Below are positions 17,288 through 51,536 of a stretch of DNA of 64,000 nucleotides, in pieces (positions within the stretch are counted from its first letter, which is position 1; each line of letters begins with the position of its first letter). The DNA lies in assembly GCF_023806465.1 (NCBI RefSeq), contig NZ_JAMSLS010000006.1, positions 62,001 to 126,000 on the forward strand. The letters run 5' to 3'. A program made the position numbers and the translations under genes. Below the pieces are notes generated by a model. The model made no database searches. It was not told the DNA's origin and saw only the letters and a program-made list of their open reading frames with translations. The stretch is from Thermomicrobium sp. CFH 73360 (GTDB taxonomy: Bacteria > Chloroflexota > Chloroflexia > Thermomicrobiales > Thermomicrobiaceae).

Positions 17288-18403
17288 TTAGTCGAAGAGG
17301 ATGACACCGCGGATGACCCGTCCTTCCAGGAGGTCGGCGTAGCCCTGGTTGATTTCCTCGAGGCGATAGGTCTTGGTGACGAGTTCATCGAGCTTGAGGC
17401 GGCCGGCGCGGTAGAGCTGGAGGAGGTAGGGGAAGTCGACGCGGGGATTGACGTGGCCGTAGAGGGTTCCGACCACCTCCTTCCCAAGGAGCACGAGATC
17501 TGCTGGTGGGACTTTCATCCACTCGGTGTTTTGCGGAGTAAGCCCCACCACAACTGTGCGCCCCGACTTGCGGGTGGCGCGGTAGGCGAGGCCGATGTGC
17601 TCGGGTTCGACGTGGCCGATGGTGACGATGGTCTTATCGGCGCCGACGCCGTTGGTGAGGTCGAGGATGCGCTGGACGGGGTCCTCGTACTGGGCATTGA
17701 TGGTGTGGGTGGCGCCGAATTCCTGGGCGGCTTCGAGCTTCCAGGGGACGAGGTCGACGGCGATGACCTTGGAGGCGCCGGCGAGGGCGGCGCCCTGGAC
17801 GGCGTTCATGCCCACGCCGCCGAGGCCAAATACGGCAACCACTTCACCAGGACGCACTTCGGCACGCTTTGTGGCGGCACCAAATCCTGTCGGCACACAA
17901 CAGGCAACAAGACATGCCTTGTCCAGGGGGATATCCGGCTCGACGCGGATGAGTGTCTCCACAGGAGCTACAATATACTCGCTAAAGCACCCAATGCCAG
18001 CAAGCTGTCCGACGTCCCGTCCATCCACAGTATGCAAGCGAAAAGTCCCGTCGAGCAGTGCACCGCCGGTGATGTTCGCACCACGATCACAGAGGACAGG
18101 GAGACCGGTGAGGCACCACCGGCACTTGCCGCATGAGGGAATAAATGTCAAGATGACATGGTCACCAGGCTGCACTTCAGTGACACCGGGGCCGACCTTC
18201 TCAACGATGCCGGCGCCCTCGTGACCTGTCACAATGGGATAGTTGGTTGTGAAGTCGCCGGTGGCGAAGTGCCAATCGGAGTGGCACATGCCGGTTGCCA
18301 CCATCTTGACCAGGACCTCTCCGGCTTTCGGCTCGTCAAGTTCGAGTTCTTCCACCTGGAACTGCCGAGTGGGCCCATACAAGACAGCAGCACGGGTCTT
18401 CAT
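17288..18403 (-). CDS. NDMA-dependent (mycofactocin-associated) alcohol dehydrogenase, paralogue 3
   Basis: 371 residues, same architecture as paralogue 2: MKTRAAVLYGPT start, zinc ligands in GMCHSDWHF, GHEGAG and CGKCRWCLTGLPVLC, Rossmann GLGGVGMNAVQGA. The start is ATG 18403 behind AAGGGGGA. It converges on mftF and has its own consensus promoter. The C-terminal coding DNA is shared almost base for base with paralogue 2 (17288-17494 and 17568-17848, constant offset 4803). Between the blocks and in the N-terminal half it differs, for example in the substrate region and in GALLDGTFRLHTVDG. Different regulation or substrate from paralogue 2 is likely. Confidence 0.92.
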   Translation of the reverse strand: MKTRAAVLYGPTRQFQVEELELDEPKAGEVLVKMVATGMCHSDWHFATGDFTTNYPIVTGHEGAGIVEKVGPGVTEVQPGDHVILTFIPSCGKCRWCLTGLPVLCDRGANITGGALLDGTFRLHTVDGRDVGQLAGIGCFSEYIVAPVETLIRVEPDIPLDKACLVACCVPTGFGAATKRAEVRPGEVVAVFGLGGVGMNAVQGAALAGASKVIAVDLVPWKLEAAQEFGATHTINAQYEDPVQRILDLTNGVGADKTIVTIGHVEPEHIGLAYRATRKSGRTVVVGLTPQNTEWMKVPPADLVLLGKEVVGTLYGHVNPRVDFPYLLQLYRAGRLKLDELVTKTYRLEEINQGYADLLEGRVIRGVILFD

Positions 18404-48511: not shown

Positions 48512-48778
48512 TGTGCCTCCCCCACCCAACGACACGTACGGCCCACCAGTGTAGCACTCATGTGTGACGCAGTGCGAGCGTCTTTTCGAGATACCGGAAC
48601 GGCGGGAGGCAAGGGGCTCGGGGAATGACGAAGGGGGAAGCAGAGAAGCCTTGCTGCCAAGCCCTGGTGCACCAGGGGCTGGTTGCCGTTCAGGGAGAGT
48701 CGGCAGAGAGCATCACCGGAGCCGCGTCGCGTGCTACGCTTGCAAAGGATGGCAAACGCTCCCGCGGAGGGTGATCCG

Positions 48779-50251
48779 GTGCGTGTTCGAGCGGAGGTCG
48801 CGGACACGACAGGGCGCGACCTGCACGAGCCTGGTGCAATCCTTCTCCTCTCTTGTTACGAGCTCGGCCACCAGCCGCTGAGTCTCGCCATGCCGCTTGC
48901 CTACCTGCGAGTAGCGGGATACCACCCGCTGGCGATTGACACGGCGGTACAGGAGCTCCCCGCGGCGGCGATCAAGCGAGCAAGGCTCGTGGCCATCTCC
49001 GTCCCGATGCACACTGCCCTCCGTTTGGGTGTGGGGCTTGGCGAGCGCATCCGGGCCGTGAATCCTGGGGTGCACCTCTGCTACTACGGCCTCTATGCCT
49101 GGTTAAACCGTGACTATCTGCTCCGAGAACTCGCCGATAGTGTGATCGGCGGTGAGATCGAGGTACCCCTCTTAGGCCTGGTTCAGGCGCTGGAGCGCGG
49201 TGGGCCAGTCACAGTGCCCGGGGTTGTGACGCGGGAGCAATCGTCTGCGCCAGCGCTCGTCCGCGTTGGTTTTCCAGTTCCAGCTCGCGACGTTCTGCCA
49301 CCACCGCGCCACTACGCGCATCTGATCATCAATGGCCAGGTCGTGCCGGCAGGATACACAGAGGCAACCCGTGGGTGTCATCATACCTGCGCACATTGCC
49401 CCGTCGTGCCAATCTACCGTGGACGGTTTTTTGCCATCCCACGCCAAGTGGTCCTCGCGGATATCCGGCAGCAGGTGGCCAACGGTGTCCGGCACATCAC
49501 CTTTGGTGATCCTGACTTCTTGAACGGGCCGACCCATAGCCTGCGCATCTGCCGTGCGTTGCACGAGGAGTTCCCGGACGTGACCTTTGATTTCACAGCG
49601 CGGATCGAGCACATCGTCCAACATCGGAACCTGATGCCGGAGTTTCGGCGGCTCGGCTGCGTTTTCGTCGTCTCGGCGGTCGAGCTTCTCAGCGACCGGG
49701 CACTCAAGGCGATCCGGAAGGGTCACTCGCGGGCCGACGTGCTTGAAGCGCTTCGCGTCTGCGACGACGCGGGCATCGCGCTGCGACCCTCGCTCTTGCT
49801 GTTCACTCCCTGGACAACCCTGGGGGACTACCTGGAGCTTCTGGAGTTCATTGAGGAAGAGGAGCTGATCGAGCACGTTGATCCGGTCCATCTTTCTATT
49901 CGCTTGCTCATCCCGCCAGGCTCGGCGCTGCTGGAGGTCCCAGAACTCCGGCCGTACTTGGGACCGCTAGATGAGGCGAACTTCACTTATACCTGGCGGC
50001 ATCCAGACCCGCGGATGGACGAACTCCAGCAGGCTGTCGCCGAGCTTGCGGAGCGGGCGACGCGGGAGGGCTGGGATCCCTATACCACCTTTGCGGCGAT
50101 ACGCGCACTGGCCTGGGAGACTGCTGGAAAGCAGCCACCCAGTGAGCCGCCGCGACGTCGACGGAAGCGACCGTCCCCACCGCGGCTCACCGAATCATGG
50201 TTCTGCTGAGCGGAGCCGCTCGCGGACCCGGTGGGTCCTGCAGAATCCTAA
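48779..50251 (+). CDS. CUAEP-tail radical SAM selenoprotein (UGA at 50207 read as selenocysteine)
   Basis: Read through the in-frame TGA at 50207-50209 this is 490 residues; conventional reading stops after Cys 476. The N-terminal 160 residues resemble a B12-binding-type domain (ILLLSCYELGHQPLSLAMPLAYLRVAGYHP, LVAISVPMHTALRLG). The radical SAM motif is CHHTCAHC (Cys 200, 204, 207), followed by VLADIRQQVANGVRHITFGDPDFLNGP. The C-terminus is LTESWFC-UGA-AEP and continues in frame for 13 codons to TAA at 50249. From memory, the CUAEP/CCAEP-tail radical SAM family has exactly this Cys-Sec/Cys-Ala-Glu-Pro tail. A SECIS-like hairpin follows the UGA. The start is GTG 48779, 7 nt after GGAGGG. Substrate unknown. 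Confidence 0.87.
50222..50241 (+). promoter_or_regulatory. SECIS-like hairpin for selenocysteine insertion
   Basis: Starting 12 nt after the UGA, GGACCC (50224-50229) pairs with GGGTCC (50233-50238) around a 3-nt GGU loop. A single U at 50239 bulges before a basal GC:GC pair. The loop begins 20 nt after the UGA. A GU-containing apical loop, a bulged U and this distance match bacterial SECIS elements read by SelB. Confidence 0.75.
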
Positions 50252-50264
50252 GGAGGGTCGCAAG

Positions 50265-51536
50265 TCAACGAGGCGAATGATCGTGCCCACTCGCCTTGTC
50301 GGTCAGTGGGATGAGCAGGAGCGATGCAATCAGCGCGGTGAACGCGAGAGCGAGAAACAGTGAAGTGCCGGTGACGAGACCAGGGACGAGTCCCCCGAGG
50401 ATTCCGCCAACCGAGCCAACACCGTTGACGATGCCCACCGCGATTGCAGCCTGTGCTCCACCGGCTTCGGCGGCTGCGACGCCAACGATTAACGACTCCG
50501 CGGCATAGAGGGTGATACCGAGCGCGAGGAGGACGAGCGCGATCAGCCACCAACGTTGAGTCCGTGCCGCAACAGGGAAGAGAAGAAGGGCCACGGTACA
50601 GCCGAGTAAGGCAAAGACAGCAGGCCGGACGCGGTGTCCCCCAAAGAGTCGATCCGAGATCGTGCCAGCGAGGAGTGGGCCGGCCAGGCCGGCGAGCCCG
50701 AGCAGTCCAGCGATCGCCGTCGCGACGCCGGCGGCGATGAAGGGTAGGGCGTCGCGGACAAGCACTGGTGCCCAGAAGACGGTCGCATAAATAACCGGCT
50801 TGAGGAGAAAATCGGCACCGCTGAGGAACCAGAGTGAACGACTACGGAGGAGCGCGAGAGCTTGTCTCTCACTGGCTCGCAGATGCTGGCTCGCCCGATC
50901 CGGTGCGAACCAGACGCGCAGCCACAGTGTGTAGGCGACGGCGACGAAGAGTGCGATCATCCCGCCCGCAAGCGGTGCGGCGCGCCACTGGCCGATGACC
51001 GAGTACGCGAACCAACCGAGAAGGACAGGAGCAGCAAGCGCCCCGAAGGCATAGCTCGTGCTGAGGATCCCGAATGCGACGCCACGCCGCTGCGGCGGAG
51101 TATGTTGTGCGACATCACTACAGACTGCGGCCCAGCCGGTGGCTTGTGCGGCACCTTGGATGAGGAGCGCGGCCAGCAGCAGCCAGGCGGTGGGCGTCGC
51201 AGCGAGAAGCAGTGATGCCGCGCAGGCGGTCAGGAGTCCGAGGGTGACTAGTCTGCGCGGGCCCACGCGGTCGGTGAGGGCGCCGGCCACGAACTGACCG
51301 GCGGCGTAGACGGCGAGGAAGAGCGCGTCGGCGACGCCGAGAAAGACACGCGAGAGGCCGAGGGTCGGGTCGGCCAGGAGTCCGAGTTTACTGGCGGCGA
51401 AGGCGAGGCGCGGAAAGTAGAAGGCAGCATAGGCCAGCCAGCTGGCGGCGAGGACGTGATTGGGGTGGGGTTGGAGTTTGGACGGCTCGTCGTCAGCAGG
51501 GGGCACGCGAGACTGCCGTGTCGGGCGGAGCTGCAC
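50265..51536 (-). CDS. Major facilitator transporter (OPA/hexose-phosphate-like)
   Basis: 423 residues with about 12 helices. ASWLAYAAFYFPRLAFAASKLGLL, YAAGQFVAGALTDRVGPRRLVTLGLL (MFS loop 2-3 signature DRVGPRR), IQGAAQATGWAAVCSDVAQHTPPQRRGVAFGILSTSYAFG and GTISDRLFGGHRVRP are features of the organophosphate:phosphate antiporter branch. Substrate not decidable. It starts at ATG 51536 and converges on the CUAEP gene with 13 bp between ends. Confidence 0.85.
   Translation of the reverse strand: MQLRPTRQSRVPPADDEPSKLQPHPNHVLAASWLAYAAFYFPRLAFAASKLGLLADPTLGLSRVFLGVADALFLAVYAAGQFVAGALTDRVGPRRLVTLGLLTACAASLLLAATPTAWLLLAALLIQGAAQATGWAAVCSDVAQHTPPQRRGVAFGILSTSYAFGALAAPVLLGWFAYSVIGQWRAAPLAGGMIALFVAVAYTLWLRVWFAPDRASQHLRASERQALALLRSRSLWFLSGADFLLKPVIYATVFWAPVLVRDALPFIAAGVATAIAGLLGLAGLAGPLLAGTISDRLFGGHRVRPAVFALLGCTVALLLFPVAARTQRWWLIALVLLALGITLYAAESLIVGVAAAEAGGAQAAIAVGIVNGVGSVGGILGGLVPGLVTGTSLFLALAFTALIASLLLIPLTDKASGHDHSPR

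Follow-up and report, generated by a model that had tools for sequence, protein, structure and literature searches.

Radical SAM families with a C-terminal Cys-Cys or Cys-Sec pair

The CUAEP/CCAEP-tail radical SAM (seleno)proteins are described by the NCBIfam model NF040546 and, although modelled by NCBI, are biochemically uncharacterised. The term "CUAEP" was absent from the papers searched (Haft and Tolstoy 2025, which lies outside this search, might mention it), and NF040546 goes unnamed in the main text of a 2026 review devoted to the selenoproteome of prokaryotes (PMC13188914). This review contains other radical SAM selenoproteins, TIGR04167 and TrsS (NF045646), which likewise combine a radical SAM enzyme with Sec but belong to separate families with other Sec motifs. 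The bacterial SECIS model given there comprises an apical loop of 3–9 nt with a G within the first two positions, a stem of 4–16 bp, a spacing of 16–37 nt and a minimum free energy of −7.5 kcal/mol or lower (PMC13188914). Among characterised families, the nearest in sequence is ArsL (NF040542), a radical SAM protein of arsinothricin biosynthesis that moves a 3-amino-3-carboxypropyl group from SAM to arsenic (PMC8552651, PMC12159101).

The gene studied here lies in a 64,000-nucleotide stretch of the genome of the heat-loving bacterium Thermomicrobium sp. CFH 73360, referred to as the window. The original prediction, made from the DNA letters, had placed its product in the radical SAM family with a CUAEP or CCAEP tail, and the search of family models identified this family as NF040546: the protein scored 761.5 bits (cut-off 500), with the match spanning residues 21–486 of the protein and positions 1–467 of the 468 positions of the profile. 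Because the match extends over the whole profile, the window protein is a further member of an already known family, and both the family and the view that it contains selenoproteins date from earlier work. The full-length match includes the C-Sec-A-E-P tail; apart from the loop and bulge of the Thermomicrobium SECIS, nothing distinguishes the protein from the family. NF040546 matches over the cut-off were found in 92 of 400 Chloroflexota genomes, the phylum being assigned from those loci that carry a name. Given the known family, selenoprotein status is unsurprising, and the interest of the locus rests on a conserved association of three enzymes.

Reading frame and C-terminal tail

The features of the gene are listed in Table 1. 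The frame runs from the GTG start to ...TESWFC and the UGA, continues with 13 codons (AEPLADPVGPAES) and closes with TAA at 50249–50251. The tail codons are TGC, TGA, GCG GAG CCG (Ala-Glu-Pro), ten more codons and TAA, so that the predicted protein tail reads FCUAEPLADPVGPAES. This is the frame that had been described originally. It had also been claimed that routine annotation would cut the protein 14 residues short and lose the Cys-Sec pair; a stop at the UGA does drop Sec477 together with the 13 residues that follow, but Cys476 of the pair is retained. Such a truncation is found in the reference strain T. roseum DSM 5159, whose ortholog (78.5% identity) is located on a 918-kb plasmid: its record carries the NF040546 family name, yet the CDS in the PLSDB table still ends exactly at the UGA. 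The annotated start of this ortholog is within one codon of the position matching the GTG of the window gene. The window protein also matched the radical SAM domain PF04055, with Cys200, Cys204 and Cys207 forming its CX3CX2C motif.

Table 1. Features of the CUAEP-tail radical SAM gene and their positions in the window.
Feature	Position	Strand	Description and basis
Gene for the predicted CUAEP-tail radical SAM selenoprotein	48779..50251	+	GTG start, TAA stop, 490 aa, Sec477; NF040546 and PF04055 matches, homologue alignment, AlphaFold model
GGAGGG, Shine-Dalgarno-like	48766..48771	+	7 nt upstream of GTG 48779; read from sequence
Radical SAM CX3CX2C motif, Cys200/Cys204/Cys207	49376..49399	+	Invariant in 65 homologues and four ArsL/RCCLKC proteins
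C-Sec-A-E-P tail motif, residues 476-480	50204..50218	+	Invariant in 65 aligned homologues except Cys/Sec at 477
In-frame UGA, predicted to be read as selenocysteine	50207..50209	+	66 UGA versus 23 Cys-codon homologues; Sec machinery in genome
Candidate bacterial SECIS hairpin	50222..50241	+	8-bp stem, bulged U50239, GGU loop; fold and covariation in relatives

The gene was present in two copies in the assembly. A second contig (C2, 45,335 bases) was 100% identical over its full length to window positions 18199–63533. Since the identity extends over all 45,335 bases, the second copy was attributed to redundancy of the assembly, and the genes of this segment probably appear twice for this reason and not through duplication.

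Decoding of the in-frame UGA

The machinery for selenocysteine insertion was found in the genome. A tRNA-Sec was detected at 74.7 bits and was classified by ARAGORN as tRNA-SeC with the anticodon tca (UCA), and matches over the respective cut-offs were obtained for selA (542 bits), selB (362 bits) and selD (359 bits). All four genes named in the original prediction as a check on Sec decoding (selA, selB, selC and selD) are thus present. Comparison of distinct homologous tails from the fetched loci revealed UGA at codon 477 in 66 tails (one of them truncated at the edge of its contig) and TGC or TGT in 23, always followed by Ala-Glu. When 65 full proteins were aligned, Cys476, Ala478, Glu479 and Pro480 were invariant and position 477 was occupied only by Cys or Sec; every one of these proteins carried C-(C/Sec)-A-E-P and none stopped at the Cys. 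Homologues with UGA and with Cys codons are spread over many phyla. At least five changes between the Sec and Cys states were found on the protein tree, where Nitrospirota, Thermogemmatispora, Dictyobacter and an Ignavibacteriales genome are among those with the Cys form.

The hairpin downstream of the UGA was recovered exactly as described at the outset, with a GGU apical loop (50230–50232), a bulged U at 50239 and a beginning 12 nt past the UGA. The loop begins 20 nt downstream of the UGA, and the fold energy of 50221–50241 is −11.4 kcal/mol. The loop, the 8-bp stem, the spacing and the energy all lie within the published constraints (PMC13188914), in line with the earlier expectation of a SECIS just after the Sec codon. 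Compared with shuffled sequences, the single-sequence fold was modest (z = −1.95), and an Rfam search of 50100–50350 gave no match to a SECIS family. The stem covaries in the relatives: 46 cells with compensatory changes were counted where shuffles gave 19.6 ± 3.3, and pairing was seen in 88% of cells, versus at most 59% in slid versions of the stem. The six inner stem pairs were 87% paired in the Sec forms and 50% in the Cys forms, and a fold of −7.5 kcal/mol or lower was reached by 56 of 63 Sec forms versus 5 of 23 Cys forms. It is this covariation, rather than the single-sequence fold, that carries the evidence for the predicted SECIS. The Thermomicrobium group differs slightly: its loop reads CGGUG rather than AGUUG, and its stem has a bulged base.

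UGA is also an ordinary stop codon in this region, where TGA terminates 10 of 13 neighbouring genes, and the T. roseum CDS closes at the same codon. True termination, with a protein ending at Cys476 and an untranslated tail, is nevertheless very improbable, in view of the AEP found downstream in all 65 aligned homologues, the 23 homologues in which the frame continues through TGC or TGT, the stem covariation that is seen beside UGA and absent beside Cys codons, and the full Sec machinery of the genome. Insertion of Cys or some other amino acid at the UGA, for example via an allo-tRNA, appears still more remote. Cys would be tolerated at position 477, since it stands there in 23 homologues, but a tRNA-Sec with the UCA anticodon, selA and selB are encoded in the genome, and the SECIS-like hairpin is kept in the UGA forms and decayed in the Cys forms. 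The comparative evidence from the machinery, the homologues and the stem upholds the initial proposal: the UGA at 50207 is very probably decoded as selenocysteine, and the resulting enzyme would have 490 residues, the last of them being Cys476-Sec477-Ala-Glu-Pro and ten more. SelB together with Sec-tRNA-Sec would read this codon, directed by the hairpin at 50222–50241.

An association with selA was considered as a special signal and rejected; selA was found in 78 of 80 genomes bearing the radical SAM gene, yet 320 of the phylum's 400 genomes have it as well, as do genomes with Cys forms. The selD gene of the window genome (L134:1144-2283, + strand) is itself predicted to encode a Sec protein, with the in-frame TGA in ASCAG-U-AGK. 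The Cys-form proteins of Thermogemmatispora (L061:2573-2717, L062:9368-9509, L071 and L073) have a long extra tail with an additional Cys-Cys pair close to the end (e.g., SSDCCGVGH), perhaps replacing Sec.

Structural model and comparison with ArsL

The AlphaFold model of the protein (pLDDT 92.2) consists of an N-terminal domain of alternating strands and helices, the radical SAM core and subsequent helices. Residues 471–480 of the tail were modelled at a pLDDT of about 65, which leaves the position of the tail relative to the active site uncertain in the model. The closest solved folds were the diol dehydratase AprD4 (PDB entry 6fd2; Z 27.9, rmsd 3.5 over 414 residues, 21% identity) and then B12-type radical SAM enzymes. 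The alignment with AprD4 stops at model residue 453, short of the Cys-Sec tail.

ArsL was the second-best family for the window protein, with 321 bits against a cut-off of 450. Both have the CX3CX2C motif and a vicinal Cys pair near the C-terminus, at 33–37% identity; beyond the cluster cysteines this pair is the sole cysteine feature common to ArsL and the window family, and Cys26 is invariant in the latter but not in ArsL. ArsL terminates in RCCLKC, whereas the window protein carries C-Sec-A-E-P in place of RCCLKC; the two pairs align only across a long gap, and their correspondence is no more than suggestive. None of the four ArsL proteins compared contained Sec. ArsL genes are located in arsenic clusters, whereas the window gene lies outside any such cluster. 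The conserved neighbours of the radical SAM loci include no arsenic genes, and arsenic itself is therefore unsupported.

Clusters with an ArsL-type RCCLKC tail carry an uncharacterised ATP-grasp gene (L162, L164 and L165; Priestia, Pantoea and Alicyclobacillus plasmids). The terms "arsinothricin" and "ATP-grasp" did not occur together in any of the papers searched. The MFS gene beside the window gene was considered as a counterpart of the ArsL-cluster transporter and rejected, its similarity to the MFS proteins of those clusters being weak and partial.

Association with an ATP-grasp ligase and a formyltransferase

One orthologous ATP-grasp protein (42–96% identical), composed of Pfam ATP-grasp_4 and an L-amino acid ligase C-terminal domain, is encoded next to the radical SAM gene in 33 of 80 loci (25 of 58 sequence groups), drawn from several phyla. 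Across 400 Chloroflexota genomes, the ligase was found in 96 of the 98 genomes bearing the radical SAM gene (NF040546 score over about 400 bits) versus 34 of the 302 others (Fisher p about 3e-60, uncorrected for shared ancestry). The radical SAM gene stands without the ligase in two genomes, G188 and G266, both of them bins that are incomplete and fragmented. A dedicated formyltransferase was separated by score (203–470 bits versus at most 178 for the rest); of the 67 genomes among the 400 that have it, 65 also bear the radical SAM gene. The three genes are adjacent on one strand in G150, G118, G134, G230 and G086. In the window genome the ligase (C38:49888-51111) and the formyltransferase (C38:48603-49478) are neighbours, distant from the window.

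Because of this co-occurrence and these operons, the radical SAM enzyme, the ATP-grasp ligase and, in the Thermomicrobium lineage, the 10-formyl-THF-type formyltransferase are likely to act in one pathway. The association with the ligase and formyltransferase is new as far as the papers searched go. The near-obligate link to the ligase and the partial link to the formyltransferase place an orphan enzyme in a testable pathway of three genes, and the association points to a small-molecule pathway not yet known. It is independent of the window gene's own neighbours, which encode an aminotransferase, the MFS transporter and thiamine-diphosphate enzymes and are partly common to T. roseum.

In the 34 genomes with a ligase ortholog and no NF040546 match over about 400 bits (e.g., L158, L159 and L160), another radical enzyme may be present or the bins may be incomplete. 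The ATP-grasp partner was also considered as a second selenoprotein and rejected; in the eight examined, the in-frame TGA or TAG codons indicated in some genomes were ordinary terminal stops that the search had run past.

Possible chemistry of the Cys-Sec pair

The catalytic or metal/thiol-binding role first suggested for the Cys-Sec pair is putative. From the comparison with ArsL, we infer a substrate, a radical species and a role for the pair. The [4Fe-4S] cluster would cleave SAM to a 3-amino-3-carboxypropyl radical, as in ArsL, and the radical group would be transferred to a soft atom (metalloid or chalcogen) held by Cys476-Sec477. The ATP-grasp ligase might then couple the resulting new amino acid to a second one, and the formyltransferase would N-formylate the ligated product. 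An ArsL-like transfer to an atom held by the pair is favoured here because ArsL is the nearest characterised family and because of the Cys pair, the chemistry of ArsL and the ATP-grasp gene in ArsL clusters. It is tentative, with a probability well below even: the ArsL cut-off is missed, the conserved neighbours include no arsenic genes, the best fold match is AprD4, the tail is placed with low confidence in the model, and the ATP-grasp proteins of the ArsL clusters are only about 21–27% identical to the ligase linked to the radical SAM gene. If the comparison is true, it would give a reason for selenium at the C-terminus of a radical enzyme.

Vicinal Cys-Sec pairs are suited to redox work. 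With Sec equally inserted, the enzyme might use ordinary 5'-deoxyadenosyl-radical chemistry, such as AprD4-like H abstraction or B12-type methyl transfer, in which the pair would quench the product radical through an H atom or electron and the ligase and formyltransferase would finish the product. Such a role fits the pair, AprD4 (Z 27.9) and the B12-type enzymes are the nearest solved folds, and the probability of this chemistry falls just short of even. It is opposed by the 3-amino-3-carboxypropyl route of ArsL, the nearest characterised family in sequence (PMC8552651, PMC12159101); in summed likelihood it is at least equal to the ArsL-like transfer because many different reactions are pooled in it. 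A tail that served solely as a metal or thiol relay, maturing or repairing the enzyme's own cluster, is improbable. NifU/Nfu-type genes adjoin the radical SAM gene in several non-Chloroflexota loci, but this linkage is confined to some phyla whereas the tail is kept in all. Under the ArsL-like transfer, the CUAEP enzymes could be selenium-dependent 3-amino-3-carboxypropyl transferases which, with the ligase and the formyltransferase, make a widespread organo-element compound of Chloroflexota, peptide-like and N-formylated, while Nitrospirota, Planctomycetota and other phyla would have variants of the pathway; this wider proposal is speculative and, taken as a whole, rather unlikely.

In other phyla, DUF169 or Nfu genes are found beside the radical SAM gene; in Nitrospirota and Planctomycetota loci, DUF169 (COG2043) genes lie immediately downstream of it (L080:9543-10280 and L099:9447-10142). 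The ligase and formyltransferase genes at L153:4559-7217 (− strand) and on C38 of the window genome are near genes named, from their sequences, as S-adenosylmethionine synthetase, adenosylhomocysteinase and methylthioribose-1-phosphate isomerase, which are functions of the SAM cycle and of methylthioadenosine salvage.
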